The notes under the pieces are model-generated. The model saw only the letters and a list, made by a program, of their open reading frames with translations. It did no database searches and had not been told where the DNA came from. The position numbers and the translations under genes are program-made. Below are positions 4,719 to 42,105 of a stretch of 64,000 nt of DNA, one piece after another. Each line of letters starts with the position of its first letter. Within the stretch, counting starts at the first letter, position 1. The DNA lies in NCBI GenBank assembly GCA_002840245.1, contig PHAA01000006.1, forward strand, positions 1 through 64,000, given 5' to 3'. Origin of the DNA: Firmicutes bacterium HGW-Firmicutes-15. GTDB lineage: Bacteria; Bacillota; Syntrophomonadia; Syntrophomonadales; Syntrophomonadaceae.

Positions 4719-5103
4719 AAGTTGAACGAAGCATTCGGGTCAAATCTGGATGCAAAGGTTAAATGTGGAATGGAACGTGTCTCCTAAAAATGATATGGGT
4801 ACAGTTTTCGTTATTGGTTTACTAGGTGAAATATTGAATCTTATGATTAGTTAACTCAGTACGCAACTATATTATTTTTTCCACATGTGGCCTTTCGCCA
4901 TTTTCATAATCCGATTTATGATCTTGTTTCTTTATTCACAAATATGTGATATTATTTGTAACAAAGAAATGGTCCACTTGTTTTTGTTGGGCTGAGGACG
5001 CTGAGTTATGAGATTCGATCTTTTGACAAAGTGCTGGTATTTTATCTGACACACGAAGATGTTATCTGAGGTGTAAGGGCAAAAAATAGTTTGTGTAGTT
5101 TTG
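4719..5103. other. Leader region upstream of the hydrogenase maturation operon
   Basis: No coding sequence is apparent. TTGACA occurs at 5023-5028 but no good -10 follows at normal spacing. The sequence GCTGAGGACGCTGAG near 4990-5005 contains a short direct repeat. The region ends in the terminator-like hairpin described next. Confidence 0.4.
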
Positions 5104-5132
5104 TGCGCCTTGCAAGGCGCATTTTTTATTTT
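5104..5132 (+). terminator. Intrinsic terminator or attenuator before the hyd operon
   Basis: TGCGCCTTGCAAGGCGCA is a perfect 18-base palindrome followed by TTTTTTATTTT, a textbook intrinsic terminator on the plus strand. It ends only 18 bases before the start codon at 5151. Because the nearest upstream plus-strand gene ends at 4718, it may act as an attenuator of the operon rather than a plain terminator. Confidence 0.8.
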
Positions 5133-5150
5133 ATGAAAGAGGTGATAGCA

Positions 5151-5435
5151 ATGGAAACAAGATTGGCACTGATTGGAATCGTCGTCGAAGATGTAAATTC
5201 GGTGGAAAAGCTGAACAGCATTCTCCACCAATTCGGGAGTTATATCATAGGCAGAATGGGTATTCCCTACCACAAGAGGCAAATCAGTATCATTAGTGTT
5301 GCTGTGGATGCACCGGCCAATATCATCAGTACGCTGTCGGGCAAACTCGGTATGCTGCCGGGCGTAAGCTCTAAGGTAGTATATTCGAAATATTCTTTAA
5401 AAAGCGGTGATGACAATAATGAAAGCGCTGATTGA
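5151..5435 (+). CDS. Iron-only hydrogenase system regulator (TM1266-like, ACT fold)
   Basis: Protein of 94 residues with a single ACT/NikR-C-like fold, recognisable as the small regulator that accompanies [FeFe]-hydrogenase maturation genes. The pattern LALIGIVVEDVNSVEKLN, then GSYIIGRMGIPYHKRQISIISVAVDAP and LSGKLGMLPGVSSKVVYSK is typical. The ATG at 5151 has an AGAGGTGAT site 7 bases ahead, better than the upstream alternatives. Its 3' end overlaps the start of hydE, indicating coupling. It has no obvious DNA-binding domain, so the regulatory role comes from family naming and gene context. Confidence 0.85.
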   Translation: METRLALIGIVVEDVNSVEKLNSILHQFGSYIIGRMGIPYHKRQISIISVAVDAPANIISTLSGKLGMLPGVSSKVVYSKYSLKSGDDNNESAD

Positions 5436-6462
5436 CAAACTGGAGAAAAAACGTAATCTAACCAATGAGGAATTTGTAGCTCTAATCTCCAACAGAAATC
5501 CAGAACTGGACAAATATCTGTTTGAAAAGGCTGTTGTCATTCGCAACAGGCATTACGAAAGCGATATTTATATCCGCGGTCTTATCGAATTTACAAATTT
5601 CTGCAAAAAAGACTGCCTCTACTGCGGGATACGGAAAAGCAATCAGAATGCCGAACGATACCGACTGACCAAGGAACAGGTACTAGATTGCTGCAAAACA
5701 GGATATGATCTGGGTTTTCGCACATTTGTACTTCAGGGCGGAGAGGACGCATATTTTAACGACGATCGTATATGCGACATGATTAAGACCATTAAAAGCC
5801 AGCATTCTGATTGTGCCCTGACTCTGTCGATTGGTGAAAAAAGCTATGCAAGCTATGAAGCTTATCATAACGCTGGTGCCGACCGCTATTTACTCCGTCA
5901 CGAAACAGCTAATGATGAGCATTATAAAAAGTTGCATCCACTGTCGATGTCGCTGTCGAACCGAAAACAATGCTTATATAACCTGAAGAAAATAGGATTT
6001 CAGGTTGGATGCGGCTTTATGGTCGGTTCACCGTATCAAAATGCAGAATATCTTGCAGAGGATATGTTATTCATCCACTACCTTCAGCCTCAGATGGTTG
6101 GTGTCGGGCCGTTTATTCCGCATCGCGATACGCCGTTTGCATCAGAACCCGCCGGTACACTTGAGATGACACTGTTCATGCTAGGGTTAATACGGCTGAT
6201 GTTGCCGAATGTGCTTATGCCATCGACAACTGCACTCGGTACAATACATCCTAAAGGGAGGGAACTGGGTATCCTCGCTGGAGCAAATGTGGTAATGCCA
6301 AATCTTTCTCCGACAGATGTTCGCAACAAATATTTGCTCTATGACAACAAAATCTGCACGGGAGACGAAGCCGCTGAATGCCAGTATTGTATGCAGCACC
6401 GTATGGAAGAAATCGGTTATAGCATAAAAGTCGACCGCGGAGACTATAAACCTGTCGTTTAG
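5419..6462 (+). CDS. hydE: [FeFe]-hydrogenase maturase HydE (radical SAM)
   Basis: Radical SAM enzyme that builds part of the H-cluster 2Fe subsite, acting after HydG in current models. The SAM-cluster motif C-x3-C-x2-C is seen as CKKDCLYC near residue 63, and the C-terminal second-cluster motif C-x7-C-x2-C is present in CTGDEAAECQYC. Other marks are the LQGGED segment and the MVGVGPFIPHRDTPF segment, the latter shared with biotin synthase-like enzymes. Possible starts are GTG 5407, ATG 5410 and ATG 5419; I chose 5419 because GGTGAT lies at a normal distance. It overlaps the regulator gene. The usual family length (about 350) is matched. Confidence 0.95.
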   Translation: MKALIDKLEKKRNLTNEEFVALISNRNPELDKYLFEKAVVIRNRHYESDIYIRGLIEFTNFCKKDCLYCGIRKSNQNAERYRLTKEQVLDCCKTGYDLGFRTFVLQGGEDAYFNDDRICDMIKTIKSQHSDCALTLSIGEKSYASYEAYHNAGADRYLLRHETANDEHYKKLHPLSMSLSNRKQCLYNLKKIGFQVGCGFMVGSPYQNAEYLAEDMLFIHYLQPQMVGVGPFIPHRDTPFASEPAGTLEMTLFMLGLIRLMLPNVLMPSTTALGTIHPKGRELGILAGANVVMPNLSPTDVRNKYLLYDNKICTGDEAAECQYCMQHRMEEIGYSIKVDRGDYKPVV

Positions 6463-14387: not shown

Positions 14388-16133
14388 TTAGTTTAATAGA
14401 TCTAAAAGTTTTTCTCCCTTAAGTTCTTCTGCTTTCCATTCTATCACTGCAAAATAGCCATTAGATATTTCATTTACTTTATTAATCCAAGTGATTTCAT
14501 TGCTTGCTTTTGCCTTTAAAACTGCATTGGATGTTTTAGTAGCAAAAAGACTCGAATTAATAACCCACCATTTCGTATTGATACCCGCCCGTTTTAAGTC
14601 TTCTTCCAGTCTCATTGCTTCATGCACAGGGGTAGTTTCAGCTAAAGTAACAATTATAACTGCGGTCTCATCATCATTTCTAAGCTTAGGTAAAAGCTTC
14701 TTAACTGACCCGGGGATATCACCCTGGGAACGCTGTATTTCTCTATGGTAGCTTTGAGTTGAGTCCAATAGTAATAGGGTGTGTCCGGTTGGAGCGGTGT
14801 CAATGACCACCACTTCATGTTCAGACCTTTCAACTATTTGCGCAAAAGCTCTAAATACTGCAATTTCCTGCGTACATGGAGATCTTAAATCTTCTTCAAC
14901 GTAGGCAATATCGTCCTCACTCATAGTTTCTCTGGCCTTACTTAAAACTTCTTCTTGATACTTTTCAAGCTCCTTCTTTTCATCAATACTACTTAGAGTA
15001 ATCCCGTAACTGTCGTCAATCACAAATTTTATATGAGCTGCCGGGTCGGTGGTGGTAAGATGAACTTTTTTACCCCTCTTGGCCAGATCTAAAGCAATGG
15101 CAGCTGCAATAGTAGTTTTACCCACGCCGCCTTTCCCCATTGTGAAAATAACTTTCTTATTAGAGTTACACAAATCATCTACAACATCTTTTAGCGTTAG
15201 TATTGCAGCAACATTCAGTTTTTCATAACTAAACTTGATATTATCTTCATGTAGAAATGATCTAATATTTGCCAGGCCAGTTACGTTATAGGGTCTTAGT
15301 GGGATTTCAAATGTCTTTAAACCTTTTAAATGCTGGGGGATATCTTTAAGAGCATCGTGCTGCTTGTTAAATATGTCTTGGGATAAGCTGTCATCATGCT
15401 GATTAAGCACACCATTTATAACTAGTACTTGATTGTTCACACCAAGATCCTGTAATTCTTGGGACGCTCTTTCCGCTTCCCTTAATGAGCCTATTTCAGG
15501 ACGTGAAACCAGAACCAGAGTGGTCATATCCTTATCAGCCAATGTTTTTACGGCATGCTTATAAATATCTTTTCTGCTTTCAAGTCCGGCTAATTGGCCT
15601 AAACAAGATGCTCCATGGGTACTTTCGCTAATGAAGTTACTCCAAGCCGATGGCAGCTGGAGCATCCTAAGGGTATGCCCGGTAGGTGCTGTATCAAATA
15701 TTATGTGGTCAAACTCAAGTTGAACTTTTTCATCGGTAATAAAGTTTGAAAACTCATTAAAGGCTGCAATTTCGACGGTACAAGAACCTGAAAGCTGTTC
15801 TTCCATATTTCTAATTACTCCTTCAGGAAGCTTGCCGCGATATGCCCCTACCACACTTTCCTTATATTCTTTAGCAGCTTCCTCAGGTTCAAAATTGGCA
15901 ACTATAAGGTTGGGAACTTCTTTAATTTGAACCCCTTTATTATCCAAGCTGGTATTAAATACATCCTGCAAGTTTGAAGCCGGGTCAGTACTTACAAGCA
16001 TTATTTTTTTACCTTGGTCTGCTAAGGTTATAGCAGCAGCACAGGCGATAGAAGTCTTACCAACCCCGCCTTTACCGGTAAAAAACAGATATTTAGTTAA
16101 ATTCATTTCTTTTAAATTAAAACTTTTCATCAT
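14388..16133 (-). CDS. arsA: Arsenite efflux ATPase ArsA
   Basis: Duplicated ATPase of 581 residues that energises arsenite export and takes As(III) from ArsD. Two P-loops are present, FTGKGGVGKTS near residue 19 and MGKGGVGKTT near residue 333, and two DTAPTGHTL signal segments follow them. The metalloid-binding cysteines are seen in SCTVEIAAF and PCTQEIAVF. The start has AAGGGAG in front. It ends the arsR-acr3-arsD-arsA block, 18 bases after arsD. ArsA usually pairs with ArsB, but pairing with ACR3 is well documented in bacteria. Confidence 0.95.
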   Translation of the reverse strand: MMKSFNLKEMNLTKYLFFTGKGGVGKTSIACAAAITLADQGKKIMLVSTDPASNLQDVFNTSLDNKGVQIKEVPNLIVANFEPEEAAKEYKESVVGAYRGKLPEGVIRNMEEQLSGSCTVEIAAFNEFSNFITDEKVQLEFDHIIFDTAPTGHTLRMLQLPSAWSNFISESTHGASCLGQLAGLESRKDIYKHAVKTLADKDMTTLVLVSRPEIGSLREAERASQELQDLGVNNQVLVINGVLNQHDDSLSQDIFNKQHDALKDIPQHLKGLKTFEIPLRPYNVTGLANIRSFLHEDNIKFSYEKLNVAAILTLKDVVDDLCNSNKKVIFTMGKGGVGKTTIAAAIALDLAKRGKKVHLTTTDPAAHIKFVIDDSYGITLSSIDEKKELEKYQEEVLSKARETMSEDDIAYVEEDLRSPCTQEIAVFRAFAQIVERSEHEVVVIDTAPTGHTLLLLDSTQSYHREIQRSQGDIPGSVKKLLPKLRNDDETAVIIVTLAETTPVHEAMRLEEDLKRAGINTKWWVINSSLFATKTSNAVLKAKASNEITWINKVNEISNGYFAVIEWKAEELKGEKLLDLLN

Positions 16134-16151: not shown

Positions 16152-16523
16152 TTAACAACATCCACCTTTACAGCCGCAATCATTAATCTCAATTTTTGTT
16201 GTAGTCTTGATAAAATCTTCAGGAATATCGAGCATTTCACAAAGCTCAGCATTGGTGGGATATGACTTGGTTTTTACTACTTTATTATCAACAATGGTTA
16301 CGGGTAATATGTCTATTCCATCACTATTTAGTAAATCATTAATAATCTTATTGTCTACAAAAATGCTGGGGTTGCTGGTTAAATTGTATCTCTCTACAAC
16401 TATACCCTTTCTTTGCAGATTATTAAGAACGGTTGATACCCTTAATAATTCGGGGTCGATTCCTGGACCGCAAACCCCAGTAGAACAACACATGGCAGGA
16501 TCAAAAATAATCATTTTATTCAT
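16152..16523 (-). CDS. arsD: Arsenic metallochaperone ArsD
   Basis: Chaperone of 123 residues that delivers As(III) to ArsA. The thioredoxin-like fold opens with IIFDPAMCCSTGVCG, which provides the required Cys12, Cys13 and Cys18 equivalents; additional vicinal cysteines close the protein (CGCKGGCC), as in many ArsD proteins. A weak repressor role is also described for the family. The gene sits between acr3 and arsA in one direction; the AGGAGAT site precedes the ATG. Confidence 0.95.
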   Translation of the reverse strand: MNKMIIFDPAMCCSTGVCGPGIDPELLRVSTVLNNLQRKGIVVERYNLTSNPSIFVDNKIINDLLNSDGIDILPVTIVDNKVVKTKSYPTNAELCEMLDIPEDFIKTTTKIEINDCGCKGGCC

Positions 16524-16663: not shown

Positions 16664-17734
16664 TTAATTATCAATTGCCTTCAATATTTCTTTGCTATAA
16701 TACTTTTTCTTGAAATACAAGGCAACATTAACCAGGGTAATTAGAACCGGCACTTCTACCAAAGGGCCGATTACTGTCGCGAATGCTTGAGTGGAATGAA
16801 TACCGAAAACCGCTACCGCAACAGCTATAGCCAGCTCAAAATCATTACTGGAGGCTGTAAATGCTATAGTAGTATTTCGGGGATAGTCGGCCCCCATCCA
16901 TTTGCCGATGAAAAAGGTGACAAACCACATAAATAAAAAGTAAATTGTCAGGGGTATTACCACTCGCACCACATCCATAGGCAGGCTTACAATTACGTTT
17001 CCTTTTAGGGAGAACATTACCAGGATGGTGAACAACAGAGCAATAAGGGTTATCTTACCAATACGGGGGATGAAGTTAGCCTCATACCAGTCACGTCCCC
17101 TTGATTTAACCATGATTGTCCGGGTGATAATAGCAGCTATAAAAGGAATGCCCAAGTAAACGAAAACACTTTTGGCTATGTCCAACATAGATACATTAAC
17201 CGCCATGCTGGGCATACCTAACCACCGGGGAATGACGGTAAGAAAAATATAGGCGTAAATTGAGTAAGTTAAGACCTGAAATATAGCGTTAAAGGCCACC
17301 AATCCGGCTACGTATTCCGGGCTGCCCTCTGCCAAGTCATTCCAAACCAAAACCATGGCGATACAGCGAGCCAACCCCACCAATATTACTCCCGCCATTA
17401 ATTCAGGCTTGTCAGGTAATAGCCAAACAGCCAGGGCAAACATGACGATAGGTCCTACTATCCAGTTCTGAACCAGAGACAGAAGCAGCAATTTCCAGTC
17501 TTTAAAGACTGTAGGGAGTTCTTCATAACGAACCTTGGCGAGCGGGGGATACATCATTAGAATTAAGCCTATAGCAATGGGAATATTAGTGGTCCCTACC
17601 TGTAATTGACCCCAGAATGCGGATATCTGGGGGTAAAAGTACCCTGTACCAACTCCCACGACCATGGCCAGAACAATCCATAGGGTGAGATAACGATCTA
17701 GGAAAGATAACTTTTTGGTGATAGATTCACTCAT
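16664..17734 (-). CDS. acr3: Arsenite efflux transporter ACR3
   Basis: Membrane exporter of 356 residues with about ten hydrophobic segments, ACR3 (bile acid:Na symporter) family. Diagnostic segments are [17 protein letters not shown], containing the conserved cysteine that handles As(III), and [21 protein letters not shown] near residue 295. It exports arsenite or arsenite/antimonite from the cytoplasm, either alone or boosted by ArsA. A TTAGGAGG-like site (AGGAGGTTAATGT) precedes the ATG. It lies 104 bases after arsR. Confidence 0.96.
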
Positions 17735-17838: not shown

Positions 17839-18183
17839 CTAGCAGGATGCACCACTAGCTTTATGTTTAATCAAACGCTCCATATCGTCCTTACAGATAT
17901 TGATTTTCAACAGTTCATCATTAATAATATCTTGAATAAAGGGGTATTTTATGATGATTTCGTTATTCATCCTATAATAAACCCATTGAGATTTTTTGTT
18001 AGAAACAATAAGTCTTGCCCACTTTAGTTTATTCAAGTGTCTTGAAGCATTGGATTGTTGTATATTGAGAACTTCCTCAATATCGCATACACACAATTCA
18101 CCGTTTTTTAAAAGATTAAGCATTCGTATCCTTGTTTCATCTGCCAGTGCTTTGAACAAATGTATAATCTCCACCAAATACAC
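17839..18183 (-). CDS. arsR: ArsR-family repressor
   Basis: Winged-helix repressor of 114 residues. The fold opens with FKALADETRIRMLNLL, then the metal-binding ELCVCDIEE (CVC motif in the alpha-3 helix) and recognition helix QQSNASRHLNKLK. The C-terminus carries an additional Cys pair (KASGASC and NICKDD). It should release DNA on binding As(III) and so open the acr3-arsD-arsA operon that follows it. A TATATATA-rich region directly upstream of its GGAGGT site is a likely operator. Confidence 0.93.
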   Translation of the reverse strand: MYLVEIIHLFKALADETRIRMLNLLKNGELCVCDIEEVLNIQQSNASRHLNKLKWARLIVSNKKSQWVYYRMNNEIIIKYPFIQDIINDELLKINICKDDMERLIKHKASGASC

Positions 18184-18484: not shown

Positions 18485-18793
18485 TTAATCAGTTTCTATT
18501 TTGAGTTCTTTGATAATCTCAATTATGGCATCTGTAGATATTGACCCTGCCAGACGTGGGGTGCCATTGATCACAGTTACAGGGAAGGAATACCCCGCAC
18601 GAATCACCTTTTCAAGCTCCGGATAAGCAGTTAGATTCACTCCGCCTGTATCTAAAAATGCAAGACTTAGCGCTTCTGCTCCGTACTTTTCAAGTAAGGC
18701 CTTTTCCATGACCGTATATTCAGCTTTAGTGTCGGCAGGGTTGCTGGTACTGCAACACCGAAAACAACACCAGTTATCTTGATTTATTTCGAT
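18485..18793 (-). CDS. Thioredoxin-fold redox protein without a canonical start
   Basis: Small thioredoxin-like protein next to the selenoprotein gene. The segment from the ATG at 18709 (MEKALLEKYG, LAFLDTGGVNL, YSFPVTVINGTPRLAGSIS, with the cis-Pro region) lacks the first strand and active site of the fold. The same frame continues upstream and supplies them: NWCCFRCCSTSNPADTKAEY, a cysteine-rich motif where a redox site is expected. This upstream part is open to a stop at 18803-18805 but contains no ATG, GTG or TTG, and ATG 18709 has no ribosome-binding site. Start could be AUC at 18793 or AUA at 18787, coupled to the gene that ends at 18807. A damaged start codon is the alternative. Confidence 0.6.
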   Translation of the reverse strand: MEINQDNWCCFRCCSTSNPADTKAEYTVMEKALLEKYGAEALSLAFLDTGGVNLTAYPELEKVIRAGYSFPVTVINGTPRLAGSISTDAIIEIIKELKIETD

Positions 18794-18806: not shown

Positions 18807-19283
18807 TTATTCATTTCCCAGGTTGCCCCGAGTTTGGAGTGCCTGTTCAATCACCGATTGAACCATTGGTTTACATCACTTGCCCGAGGGGCTTCTCAAA
18901 TTACACTGGCATCCGGTATTTGCACCTGTATGAGCCTGAATATCTTCGAGGTTATTACAGCAACGATTTAGCGATACATGTTCCCATATTTGTTCATCAG
19001 TGACTTCTTGACAATAACATATAGGAACCGGTGATTTCTCCTTAAACCATATCGGGACAGATAATGCATTTTTGTGTATTACCTGACCTATTATGGAAAA
19101 ATATCCGGCAGGACAGTTTGGAGAAAGGCACAAATAGTAGTCAGCTTCTTCATTAGTATTACTGTTTTCACATAAGCTTTTTACAGTTTGAATAATTACC
19201 ACCTGCCCTGGGGTAGAACACCAAGGACATAAGGGCTCGATTTTGCTAATGTTATCGTTTAGTTCTTTAAGCAATATATGCAA
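18807..19283 (-). CDS. CopZ-like [2Fe-2S] protein, probable selenoprotein (in-frame UGA)
   Basis: Protein with a CopZ-N-terminal-like zinc/[2Fe-2S] fold: CPWC near residue 19, YLCLSPNCPAGYFS near residue 50, then a BFD-like segment ICYCQEVTDEQIW near residue 88 and NTGCQCNLRSPSGK. A TGA at 18876-18878 interrupts the frame exactly where, in related CopZ proteins as I recall them, SG is followed by a Cys pair. The frame then continues CKPMVQSVIEQALQ to TAA at 18807, giving 158 residues with Sec at 136. A perfect hairpin lies about 12 bases after the UGA. Reading stopped at UGA would lose two cluster ligands. The ATG overlaps the CcdA gene end by 17 bases. Confidence 0.75.
18845..18863 (-). promoter_or_regulatory. 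Candidate bacterial SECIS element
   Basis: On the minus strand GTTCAATC (18863-18856) and GATTGAAC (18852-18845) form a perfect 8-bp stem with a GGT loop. The loop begins about 20 bases after the UGA codon. Bacterial SECIS hairpins lie just downstream of the UGA, with a short loop that contains G and U, so position, stem and loop all fit. Confidence 0.65.
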
Positions 19284-19953
19284 AATAGCCTCCCACTACA
19301 ATAATGATAACACCTGCTATCTTCTCCATTATATTATTCCACTTCGCAAAGCTGTTCATGCGGGTAATAAGTCCGGTAAAGGTCCCAACTAAAATAATGG
19401 GAATGCCCCTGCCTAAAGCATAAACGAATAAGAGGGTAGCACCATATAACCACTTGCCGCTAGCCATTGCCAGGGAAAGAATAACCAGCAGAATGGGGGT
19501 ACCACACTGTGAACCAACCAAGCCCATAACCAGACCCAGAAGATAACTTCCTCCTAGGCCCCTGGCTTCACCTACCCGGTTAAGAAGATTTCCGCCGAAA
19601 TTGATGTTTAGCTTGAGGAATCCTAATAGGTTTAAACCCAATGAGATACATACTGCTGCTACCAGATAATACAGGATGCTCTTACTGGTACCGAATATCC
19701 CGCCTACTGCAGCGATAAACAAGCCCAGGAGCATGAAGGTGGTAGCCGTTCCCAGCGTAAAGGCCACTGACAAAGCCAGACTTCTTTTACGTCCAGCATC
19801 GATACCTCCAACATACGCAATAATTATGGGGGCCATACTGAGATTACAGGGTCCGATGCTGGTTACCAGTCCCGCCAGGAATACCAGCGCATATCCAAAC
19901 AGGGAAAAGCTCGTGAGGAACTGAGGTGCAATTTGATTTATCCAGGCTTCCAA
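19267..19953 (-). CDS. CcdA/DsbD-type transmembrane thiol-redox transporter
   Basis: Membrane protein of 228 residues with six hydrophobic segments and the two buried cysteines typical of CcdA: GLVTSIGPCNLSMAP near residue 35 and GLVGSQCGTPIL near residue 148. Such proteins pass electrons from cytoplasmic thioredoxin to thiol proteins outside the membrane. The neighbours fit: an extracytoplasmic thioredoxin lies one base upstream and a CopZ-like protein overlaps its 3' end. No cytochrome c gene is close, so the client is likely the local thioredoxin or an arsenic/selenium-related protein. Confidence 0.88.
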   Translation of the reverse strand: MEAWINQIAPQFLTSFSLFGYALVFLAGLVTSIGPCNLSMAPIIIAYVGGIDAGRKRSLALSVAFTLGTATTFMLLGLFIAAVGGIFGTSKSILYYLVAAVCISLGLNLLGFLKLNINFGGNLLNRVGEARGLGGSYLLGLVMGLVGSQCGTPILLVILSLAMASGKWLYGATLLFVYALGRGIPIILVGTFTGLITRMNSFAKWNNIMEKIAGVIIIVVGGYFAYIA

Positions 19954-19954
19954 C

Positions 19955-20569
19955 TTATTTCACCACCTTGTTGAGTTCCTTTTTAAAATTCTCAACCGGA
20001 ATGATGCCCACGTTTTGATAGTTAAGTTTGCCTGCACCGTCGATTATAAAGGTGGTGGGGATATACTGGATTTTCCATGTTTTTATAAGTTCGATATTAT
20101 TTCTATCATTAACATCAATGCTAATGAAACGAACCTTGCCTTTATAGTCTGACTCCAGTTGAGCGAATATTTTTTGCATCTCAACACAGGGGGCGCAGGT
20201 GGTGGAACGGAAGAGAAGCCACATGCTCTCTCCATTTTTCTTAGCCTCTTCAATTGTTGCGGCGGAGCTAAGCGGTATTTTGCTTTCAGTTGGTGTAGCA
20301 GAAGTGGCGGGTGCTTTCTTCTCTGCCGTTCCAGCAGAGCTAATTGGTACTTTGTCCTCATCTGGTACAGTAGAGCTAACTGGTGCTTTGTTCTCAGTTG
20401 GTGCAGTAGAACTGACCGGTGCTTTGTTATCACCTGGTACAGCAGAGCTAACTGGTGTTTGATTATCTGCCAATGGTGGTGACGGTACTTTTTCACCATA
20501 ATAGGAAAAGCCAAACAGTGCCAAAATGATTAAAAAGCCAGCGATCACTACGATACGTCCATCCTTCAT
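19955..20569 (-). CDS. Membrane-anchored thioredoxin with repetitive linker
   Basis: Secreted, probably anchored thioredoxin of 204 residues. The N-terminal helix VVIAGFLIILALFGFSYYG (residues 7-25) is an uncleaved anchor or signal. Residues 35-106 are six 12-residue units of the type ENKAPVSSTVPD. The thioredoxin domain follows with the CAPC active site at residues 125-128 and the cis-Pro segment YIPTTFII. AAAGGGG seven bases before the ATG at 20569 makes it a better start than 20590. One base separates it from the CcdA gene; together they form a membrane thiol relay. Confidence 0.88.
   Translation of the reverse strand: MKDGRIVVIAGFLIILALFGFSYYGEKVPSPPLADNQTPVSSAVPGDNKAPVSSTAPTENKAPVSSTVPDEDKVPISSAGTAEKKAPATSATPTESKIPLSSAATIEEAKKNGESMWLLFRSTTCAPCVEMQKIFAQLESDYKGKVRFISIDVNDRNNIELIKTWKIQYIPTTFIIDGAGKLNYQNVGIIPVENFKKELNKVVK
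20252..20467 (-). repeat. Six tandem 36-base units encoding a thioredoxin linker
   Basis: Six in-frame units of 36 bases encode DNQTPVSSAVPG-like 12-mers rich in Pro, Ser, Ala and Lys. The middle units are closest to each other, the outer ones more diverged, which suggests growth by slippage or unequal recombination. The number of units may vary between strains. Confidence 0.8.
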
Positions 20570-20746
20570 AAAAATACCCCTTTCATGCATGCGAAAATAT
20601 CTTCACAAGTACCATAATAAGTATTATCAGTAAGTTTGACTAATGCTTTTCGGACAAAAGCCATTAACTATTCAATAATAATATAATTATATATTAAATA
20701 CTGCGCAATGAAATATAATAAAATAAATTGAGAAGGAGACGAGACA

Positions 20747-30195: not shown

Positions 30196-30954
30196 CTATA
30201 CATAACAGGATAGGCCGCCATCAACCATGAAAATATTGCCGGTTAACCACTGGGAATCGTCAGAGGCAAAGAAGATAATGCTGCCGACCATGTCATCTGG
30301 ATAACCCACTCTTTTCATGGGGAATAGCTTATTAAGTTTATCCATTTTACCGGCTACCTCAAGACGGTCAATTTCATCCTGCATCATCGGCGTTACTACG
30401 TGGGAAGGGCACAGGCAATTAACTCGGATATCTGGTCCCAGCCCTGCTGCCATGGCTCGGGTGAGGTTAACAACCCCGCCTTTCATAGCGCAGTAGGCGG
30501 TTGCGTTTCCATTTCCCAATACTCCTAATATGGAAGCAATATTTATAATACTTCCCCCACCTGCTTCGTTCAGCATGGGTACCATTACCTGCGAAACTGC
30601 AAAAACACTGCGTAAATCCACCCTGTATATTTCGTCAAATTCATCTAGAGTAGTTTGCAGAAAAGGTTTAAAAAGGGCTGAACCAGCATTGTTTATAAGT
30701 ATATCCAAGCGCCCCCAGCGTTCTTTAAGCAGTTGAGCAGCTTTTTCGATCTGGGTAACTTGAGTAACATCAGTAGGACAAGCCAAAGCTTCTCCACCAG
30801 CCTGCTCTATTTTCGCAACTGTTTCCTGCAGAGGTTCGAGACGCCGCCCCAAGACCATAATTTTGGCACCTTCTGCCGCAAGAGCAATTGCCGCTCCCTG
30901 GCCTATCCCAGTACCTCCACCTGTAACAATAGCCACTTTGCCCATAAGTTTCAT
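30196..30954 (-). CDS. Short-chain dehydrogenase/reductase
   Basis: Classical SDR of 252 residues. The nucleotide site is VTGGGTGIGQGAA and NNAGS; an Arg after the second strand (LGRRLEP) suggests NADP preference. The catalytic tetrad includes N of NIASILGVLG and the YCAMKGG motif (Tyr and Lys). The end NIFMVDGGLS is typical. The substrate is unknown; related proteins are 3-oxoacyl or sugar/alcohol dehydrogenases. TTGGAGG precedes the ATG. The adjacent MarR regulator may control it. Confidence 0.92.
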   Translation of the reverse strand: MKLMGKVAIVTGGGTGIGQGAAIALAAEGAKIMVLGRRLEPLQETVAKIEQAGGEALACPTDVTQVTQIEKAAQLLKERWGRLDILINNAGSALFKPFLQTTLDEFDEIYRVDLRSVFAVSQVMVPMLNEAGGGSIINIASILGVLGNGNATAYCAMKGGVVNLTRAMAAGLGPDIRVNCLCPSHVVTPMMQDEIDRLEVAGKMDKLNKLFPMKRVGYPDDMVGSIIFFASDDSQWLTGNIFMVDGGLSCYV

Positions 30955-31095
30955 ATCGTATTACCTCCAACAACTTATTATTAGTTATACAATACAACAA
31001 ATGGGTTAATTATACCTGCTGAATTAGAAGTGGATGATGATTGAAGAAGAAATCGATATGTACAATAAACCCTTGACCGGTGGTATTCTTGCCGC

Positions 31096-31515
31096 CTATT
31101 CTAACATGTTGTCAAGTTCCACTAAAATATTATCTATAAAACCCTGGTCGCTTCCATCTGTTCTGGATCTTAGTATAGCATCAGTTTGCATTGCTATTGG
31201 AAATATAGAATCTGCAATTTCTTTACCTTTCTCGGTTAGAAATATCTGAAAAGATCGTCTATCTTGAGCATCGACAACCCTTATAACCAGTTGTTCCTTT
31301 TCCAATCGATCAATTAATCCTGTAACAGAGCTATCAATGCTTAACTTCTGAGCAAGGTTTCTAATGTTTTGCCCATCTTCTTCAAGCAGGGACAAAAGAA
31401 CAAGTGATTGTACCGCTGTTATTCCAAATTCACAATAGCGGTTGTTGTAATACTTCTGAATCTTTCGGGATGCTACTCCCAGTTTATAACACATCAAATC
31501 TGAAAATTGGCGCAA
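31096..31515 (-). CDS. MarR-family regulator
   Basis: Winged-helix regulator of 139 residues. The recognition area is IRNLAQKLSIDSSVTGLIDRLEKEQLV followed by the wing VDAQDRRSFQIFLTEKG, the MarR DR-R pattern. It probably represses its own gene and the divergent Fe-S protein gene through the long inverted repeat between them. TTAGGAGGCAACC is its ribosome-binding site. Confidence 0.9.
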   Translation of the reverse strand: MRQFSDLMCYKLGVASRKIQKYYNNRYCEFGITAVQSLVLLSLLEEDGQNIRNLAQKLSIDSSVTGLIDRLEKEQLVIRVVDAQDRRSFQIFLTEKGKEIADSIFPIAMQTDAILRSRTDGSDQGFIDNILVELDNMLE

Positions 31516-31541
31516 ATGGGTTGCCTCCTAAAAAATGCAAT

Positions 31542-31604
31542 TATAATACACGCAAGTATATTACACATAGTATAATTGCATGTGTTATAATTACGTGTAT
31601 TATA
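31542..31604. promoter_or_regulatory. Nested inverted repeats between the MarR gene and the Fe-S gene
   Basis: TATAATACACG (31542-31552) is mirrored perfectly by CGTGTATTATA (31594-31604). Inside, TTACACAT (31561-31568) faces ATGTGTTA (31580-31587) with one mismatch. Two nested sites fit a MarR dimer pair covering the divergent promoters. Confidence 0.6.
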
Positions 31605-31798
31605 GTGAAGCTAGTATATATGTAGAATACGCGGTTGTCAATCCAGTAAAGCTTAGCAATATTTTAAAATGGGTTGAGTAAAAAGTGAGTTATGAACATA
31701 GTAATTCTAGCCAAACAGTTGTAAGAAGAAATTGAAAACAAATCTAGTTGAAAGCCAGTTATATCTGGTGGTGGAGAAATGGAAGGAGGAGAAAAGGC

Positions 31799-32581
31799 AT
31801 GGTGACTGAAGATACCAAGAAGAAGATTCGTCAATATGTACTGGACTTAGGGGTTGATGATGTTGGGTTTGCTAATGTTAACGACTACTCCAGTCCCCGA
31901 TCCCCAAAGATTGAAAGCATATTTCCCCAGGCTAGATCTATGGTAGTAATGGCTTTCAAAGAGCCATCTAACTGTGAAAGTTCCAGCAGTGCCATAGCTA
32001 TGGGCGGTCGGTTGGATCTTATGGAGTTTACTCGTTCCTGCAATTATAAGGTTACGCGCTTTTTGGAAAAGGAATTTCATATTAAATCTATGTCGGTACC
32101 GGTTTCCTATCCGTTAGATATGAGTTCCAAAACTGGTGGTCTGATAGGTGAGGTATCCCTCCGTCATGCGGCTCTAGCAGCAGGTCTAGGTGCTTTTGGC
32201 CGCCACAATCTGATAATTCATCCTCGCTTAGGGACCCGGGTGATTTATTCAGCTATACTCAACGAGTTGGACCTACCCTCTGATCCGCAGGTCACCGGAG
32301 ATTTGTGCATCGATTGCGACATTTGTGTAGAAAGCTGCCCAGCGGGAGCACTTAATGAAGAGGGAAAGACTCATTTGATGAAATGCCTGCGTAATTCTCA
32401 GCCCCATGGTCTGGGAGGAGATATAAGCTTTTGGAGGAAATTCGTCGATAGTACTCCAGAGGTACAAAAAAAGATGTTCTTAACTGAGGAATACATGAGA
32501 AATTATCAGGCTCAACTGATTGGCTTTCAGTATTTCTGTTTTAATTGCTACACATCGTGTCCCCTGGGTAATGATCTTTAA
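31799..32581 (+). CDS. Double [4Fe-4S] cluster protein related to epoxyqueuosine reductase
   Basis: Iron-sulfur protein of 260 residues. The middle part (GEVSLRHAALAAGLGAFGRHNLIIHP) resembles the cobalamin-binding region of QueG-like and reductive-dehalogenase-like proteins. The ferredoxin part has CIDCDICVESCP near residue 170 and CFNCYTSCP at the end. It is shorter than QueG and lacks its HEAT repeats, so it is better called an uncharacterised relative. Such stand-alone proteins are common in anaerobes. GGAAGGAGG precedes ATG 31799. It is divergent from a MarR gene. Confidence 0.75.
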   Translation: MVTEDTKKKIRQYVLDLGVDDVGFANVNDYSSPRSPKIESIFPQARSMVVMAFKEPSNCESSSSAIAMGGRLDLMEFTRSCNYKVTRFLEKEFHIKSMSVPVSYPLDMSSKTGGLIGEVSLRHAALAAGLGAFGRHNLIIHPRLGTRVIYSAILNELDLPSDPQVTGDLCIDCDICVESCPAGALNEEGKTHLMKCLRNSQPHGLGGDISFWRKFVDSTPEVQKKMFLTEEYMRNYQAQLIGFQYFCFNCYTSCPLGNDL

Positions 32582-41806: not shown

Positions 41807-42105
41807 CGAGGAACTGGGCACTATGCAGGAATGCTTTTATGCCCTCCTTGATAACAGGCTTTACGACCACGAAGAAGATATGATTCGAACCGTTAACAAA
41901 ATATGATGATTAAATAATCGATTTTTACGATATTCGGAATAGTTGTCTTTGAAATACAATTGCGTTTATGATATATTTAATTCGCATGTAACTGGTGGAA
42001 ATGGAGTTTGCCATAGGGAGCATGAGTCACTTGGATTATCGACTGCCTGGGTAGATTATGTATTTGCTCAGGTTTTTTGTATTGATTTTTAAGGAGGTTG
42101 TAATA
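41807..42105. other. Spacer before the AICAR transformylase gene
   Basis: A 27-codon frame at 41823-41906 (MQECFYALLDNRLYDHEED) is the only coding-like feature and cannot be assigned. I see no promoter pair that stands out. Confidence 0.3.

Follow-up and report, generated by a model that had tools for sequence, protein, structure and literature searches.

Within the 64,000-nucleotide stretch of contig PHAA01000006.1 from Firmicutes bacterium HGW-Firmicutes-15 that we analyzed (the window), a gene for a CopZ-like [2Fe-2S] protein lies beside arsenic-resistance genes and carries a TGA inside its reading frame. Is this UGA a stop, an error, or a codon for selenocysteine (Sec), and what would a selenoprotein do in such a place? 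A first-pass annotation of the DNA had proposed a Sec-encoding UGA in a CopZ-like [2Fe-2S] protein, and that reading is supported by the sequence comparisons reported below, from which we regard the decoding of UGA136 as Sec as very highly probable.

The predicted selenoprotein gene occupies positions 18807–19283 on the reverse strand, from a TTG start at 19283 to a TAA stop at 18807–18809, and specifies 158 residues with Sec at position 136. The TTG start is supported by its context, because a Shine-Dalgarno-like GGGAGG (positions 19289–19294, reverse strand; read from the sequence) sits 5 nt ahead of it. The 5' end of the gene overlaps the 3' end of an upstream gene for a DsbD-like protein by 17 nt. 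The window translation contains every element of the frame that had been described: the 158-codon frame is open across the TGA at 18876–18878 (reverse strand), with 22 sense codons beyond it and then the TAA. The residues around the UGA are CQCNLRSPSGK-U-CKPMVQSVIEQALQTRGNLGNE, and the next codon is TGT (Cys137); the Sec motif is thus GKUC, which is of the GxUC type. Standard annotation ends the gene at the UGA, and the last 23 residues, the Sec-Cys pair among them, are then lost.

The protein matches both Pfam zf_CopZ (PF18423) and Fer2_BFD (PF04324) above their gathering scores. In the subfamily alignment, the zinc cysteines C19, C22, C52, and C57 are invariant, as are C89, C91, C127, U136, and C137; the candidate Fer2_BFD cluster ligands are thus conserved as three Cys plus the U-C pair. 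The same pattern of zinc and [2Fe-2S] cysteines, together with an NPxGxCC motif, is found in the N-terminal domain of Archaeoglobus fulgidus CopZ (PDB 2hu9), which the subfamily profile detects with an E-value of 9.4e-19. Opposite the UGA, 2hu9 has the first Cys of its NPSGRCC, and thus Cys in place of Sec; it also lacks an additional Cys108-Cys109 pair that is invariant in the subfamily. Full-length A. fulgidus CopZ has a C-terminal copper-binding domain, which is absent from the window protein: the latter stops 22 residues past the Sec, and a Pfam search of the whole protein gave no match to an HMA (Atx1-like) copper-binding domain. Because it is without an HMA domain, we rejected the possibility that it is a copper chaperone proper, that is, a CopZ in the usual sense.

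The neighboring genes that bear on function are all on the reverse strand. Upstream are genes for a DsbD/CcdA-like membrane protein (19267–19953; DsbD_TM, Pfam PF02683, 5.4e-22; distantly ArsG/TsoB-like) and for a thioredoxin-like protein with an N-terminal hydrophobic segment (19955–20590; Pfam PF00085). On the downstream side are genes for an ArsR/SmtB regulator (17839–18183; NF033788, above cut-off), the arsenite efflux permease Acr3 (16664–17734; TIGR00832, 443 bits, above cut-off), the arsenite metallochaperone ArsD (16152–16523; NF033727, above cut-off, with Pfam ArsD matched at full length), and an ArsA-type ATPase with two P-loop halves (14388–16133; two GKGGVGKT motifs). Parts of this arrangement recur elsewhere. 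In Thermosyntropha the DsbD-like gene (71–74 per cent identity) is also directly upstream, and in two Thermosyntropha genomes a thioredoxin and DsbD-like pair precedes the selenoprotein gene; the genes after it are Acr3 plus ArsC in one case and ArsC only in the other. An ArsA homolog adjoins the gene at locus L060, and in genome G184 the gene lies beside ArsD, ArsR, ArsA, and Acr3. In Desulfotruncus arcticus, Acr3 begins approximately 400 nt downstream, and a Desulfallas sp. is another named example of the Acr3 linkage. The Tso selenoprotein operon is comparable in having both kinds of neighbor, DsbD-like (TsoB, a rhodanese/DsbD fusion) and ArsR-type (the regulator TsoR), but the window proteins score far below the respective models (70 versus a cut-off of 805 for TsoB and 46 versus 115 for TsoR), and no match to TsoA or TsoC was found among the neighbors searched.

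An order-level search identified a second copy in the host genome and, across three other genomes, four more loci; every one of these genes contains a single TGA. A search of a phylum sample with the NF045877 model gave more. All 22 UGA loci that could be read have the TGA at this codon, and they align gap-free from it through the following Cys and the tail. A single-sequence query of the genome contigs gave no matches, but an alignment-based query did find loci: the scan of named genomes recovered 40, and the TGA is present in every one of the 39 that are readable across the site (this set and the set of 22 overlap). Named hosts of the UGA form include Thermosyntropha (T. lipolytica bears the same gene), Desulfosporosinus, Desulfallas, Desulfofundulus, and a Syntrophomonas MAG. 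None of these homologs, whose alignment across the UGA had been suggested as a check, ends at this point; the UGA and the tail are common to them. The two search patterns of the named-genome scan (39 readable loci) turned up no member of the close subfamily with Cys in place of Sec. This absence is a real, if limited, observation, because one of the two patterns lies upstream of the UGA and is independent of that codon. The second copy in the host (L018; contig C37 of genome G000, 4860–5276) is approximately 50 per cent identical to the first and has both the UGA and the hairpin described below, with no arsenic genes beside it. Separately, the gene of Peptococcaceae bacterium BRH_c4a (L100, near 6001–6402) has a second in-frame TGA, which replaces the second Cys of the Cys108-Cys109 pair (CURDIKDIQ), and a close relative (L093) has Cys at that position; L100 may encode a double selenoprotein or contain an error.

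The candidate bacterial SECIS element (bSECIS) is a hairpin at 18845–18863 (reverse strand), with a perfect 8-bp stem (GUUCAAUC/GAUUGAAC; arms at 18856–18863 and 18845–18852) and a GGU loop at 18853–18855. Its stem and loop had been placed about 12 and about 20 bases past the UGA, and the spacings are exactly 12 nt and 20 nt, respectively. The bSECIS limits given in a 2026 review are a loop of 3–9 nt, a stem of 4–16 bp, a G within the first two loop bases, a spacing of 16–37 nt, and a minimum free energy of at most -7.5 kcal/mol (PMC13188914). The window hairpin falls within them, with its 3-nt GGU loop, 8 bp, 20 nt, and -8.0 kcal/mol. Its folding energy, however, does not differ significantly from that of shuffled sequences (z = -0.55), and we therefore rejected minimum free energy as evidence for the hairpin. 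What decides the case is conservation in relatives. The loop lies 20 nt beyond the UGA in all UGA loci of both overlapping sets (22 and 39 loci) and reads GGU, with one GGC, and the inner six pairs of the stem are kept in every UGA locus. Codons 5–9 after the UGA (GTG CAA TCG GTG ATT) hardly vary, wobble positions included, with TCG in 22 of 22 loci, whereas in 15 Cys homologs with the same tail these codons vary freely and form no hairpin. Compensatory changes are found both in the window, where a G-C pair became U-A with an Ala to Glu replacement, and in three relatives (L087, L089, and L102), where an A-U pair became G-C with a Gln to Arg replacement. Such pairing, held at the cost of the protein, points to selection acting on the hairpin RNA. 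Because the constancy of the encoded VQSVI reflects the RNA, it cannot be counted as protein conservation.

The host genome also has the machinery for Sec incorporation, the presence of which the first-pass annotation had singled out for checking. Genes for selA (574.6 bits), selB (372.3 bits), and selD (365.6 bits) are all above cut-off, and a tRNA-Sec gene (selC), also above cut-off, adjoins selB. In each of the 22 sampled genomes with the UGA form, tRNA-Sec is matched with 64.9 bits or more; the converse is uninformative, because many genomes with the Cys form also have tRNA-Sec. The host selD (L010; contig C79 of G000, 30910–31833) itself holds an in-frame TGA, and the host selenophosphate synthetase probably contains Sec as well, a situation known from other bacteria.

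How do the alternatives to Sec fare against these observations? If the UGA were an ordinary stop, the protein would end at residue 135 and the open stretch behind it would be due to chance. The length of that stretch is compatible with such a reading, since at least 22 open codons follow the TGA in 11 of 30 long TGA-ended frames of the window and extensions of this kind are thus common by themselves. The content of the tail is not: it is homologous to the tails of Cys homologs, adding 21.9 bits to a profile of 15 of them, a gain that was reached by none of 1,000 shuffled tails, with or without the Cys pair kept. All 22 UGA loci show tail gains of 17–23 bits against the same profile, and the earlier impression that the downstream residues look like protein and not chance is therefore borne out. 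Moreover, the combination of TGA and hairpin is found once in the window and in 0 of 100 shuffles, and the UGA, the tail, and the hairpin are retained in all relatives. On this comparative evidence we rejected the ordinary stop, which we consider very improbable. Even less credible is a sequencing error or mutation that made TGA from a Cys codon. TGT and TGC are each one base from TGA, and homologs of the sister family have Cys at this codon; as the first-pass annotation had proposed, the UGA takes the place of the leading Cys in the C-terminal Cys-Cys pair of CopZ/BFD homologs, 2hu9 included. The same TGA, however, is carried by dozens of genomes and by the second host copy, always accompanied by a hairpin that the Cys homologs lack, and we rejected error because the relatives share the codon.

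The function of the putative selenoprotein is harder to assign. We give about even odds to the possibility that its role has nothing to do with arsenic but concerns general redox chemistry, iron-sulfur clusters, or the handling of other metals, its place in this operon being incidental. Most UGA-form loci, the second host copy included, are away from arsenic genes, and in one group the gene lies between conserved non-arsenic genes; this local synteny is confined to that group, and no recurrent non-arsenic partner gene near the UGA-form loci is common across families. A. fulgidus CopZ, the nearest solved relative, is linked to copper. Yet 5 of 22 Sec genomes, from four taxonomic families, have Acr3 no more than 10 kb from the gene, versus 1 of 23 genomes with other forms (some contigs do not extend far enough for this to be assessed). 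The estimated chance expectation is approximately 1 per cent per genome, if a genome of 3 Mb holds about one copy of Acr3. The block of DsbD-like and thioredoxin genes is, moreover, kept in Thermosyntropha along with ArsC or Acr3. The placement in an arsenic island, to which attention had been drawn, is therefore real and recurrent but holds for a minority of relatives only, and its recurrence hints at a metalloid-handling role. A redox role toward a metal or metalloid is favored by the conserved Cys columns, the match to 2hu9, the operon content, and the Acr3 linkage, and we see about an even chance that it is correct. A role specific to arsenic, suggested by the gene neighborhood, is a more doubtful proposition.

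We propose the following model. The product would be a stand-alone protein of the CopZ N-terminal type, with a four-Cys zinc site (C19, C22, C52, and C57) and, C-terminal to it, a BFD-like [2Fe-2S] domain (C89, C91, C127, and U136-C137). Sec-tRNA would be produced via SelA and SelD, and SelB would read UGA136 as Sec, guided by the hairpin 20 nt downstream. Judging from the BFD fold, the U136-C137 pair is predicted to supply the fourth cluster ligand; under selenium shortage, translation would presumably stop at the UGA and yield a 135-residue form without the pair for that ligand. Most likely, the full-length protein would act on soft metals or metalloids, as a redox or transfer protein whose selenol-thiol pair next to the cluster binds or reduces a thiophilic substrate, perhaps with the participation of Cys108-Cys109. 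In the window operon that substrate may be arsenic, with reducing power coming from the neighboring DsbD-like and thioredoxin-like proteins and export proceeding via Acr3/ArsA/ArsD. That an obligate-looking selenol next to or ligating the [2Fe-2S] cluster binds or reduces arsenic or another metalloid, within a thioredoxin/DsbD-driven module coupled to Acr3/ArsA/ArsD, is offered tentatively. If the Sec pair does touch the cluster or arsenic, the presence of a selenol-thiol site in a [2Fe-2S] protein, and how that site is linked to metalloid resistance, would become open to direct testing.

The gene is confirmed as a new member of a known selenoprotein family. A (2Fe-2S)-binding protein of the copper chaperone CopZ family, form 1, with the motif GxUC, is listed in the 2026 review tables (PMC13188914), and forms 1 and 2 (form 2 being CU, the Csac_0668 family) also appear in PMC9312934. 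Form 1 (cd10141) has the same domain, the same Sec motif (GKUC here), and the same reading as a predicted selenoprotein; the match is by description, the reference protein is WP_245779778.1, and no excluding feature was found. The passages on form 1 in PMC13188914 and PMC9312934 make no mention of an arsenic linkage, and in the literature consulted we came across no experiments that support either form. Zhang and Gladyshev (2008; PMC2398784), the source that the review gives for the family, do not use the word CopZ in the main text. The first-pass annotation mentioned a similar family labeled '(seleno)protein'; the family model, NF045877 (Csac_0668, form 2), describes a sister group. The window protein is homologous to it over nearly the full length (E-value 2.8e-29), but scores 102 versus a cut-off of 190 and its gene has no N-terminal UGA, whereas NF045877 members have Sec in an N-terminal Cys-Sec motif and retain Cys-Cys as the C-terminal pair (L022, L027, and L032–L034). 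One form 2 relative (L021, genome G145) has its TGA in an N-terminal CCCSDU, and the best tRNA-Sec match of that genome is 45.5 bits (gathering score, 47 bits). No NCBIfam model passes its cut-off for the form 1 protein of the window, and the set of loci collected here would support a proper one.

Two further features of the window were observed. At the Rfam gathering threshold, the only match in the window is a ZMP/ZTP riboswitch located elsewhere, at 41978–42059 on the forward strand (39.5 bits; gathering score, 39). Downstream of the selenoprotein gene, a small protein is encoded at 18485–18709 (reverse strand) with 50 per cent identity to a Thermosyntropha homolog (L049, 5291–5533), which has a normal start and a CCxCC stretch of its own. 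A longer frame of the small protein (18485–18790, reverse strand) has a Cys-rich start, NWCCFRCCSTS, in frame with the body, and a start at ATG AAT AAT TAA meets TAA at the fourth codon; the gene may be disrupted, have an unusual start, or reflect an assembly error.
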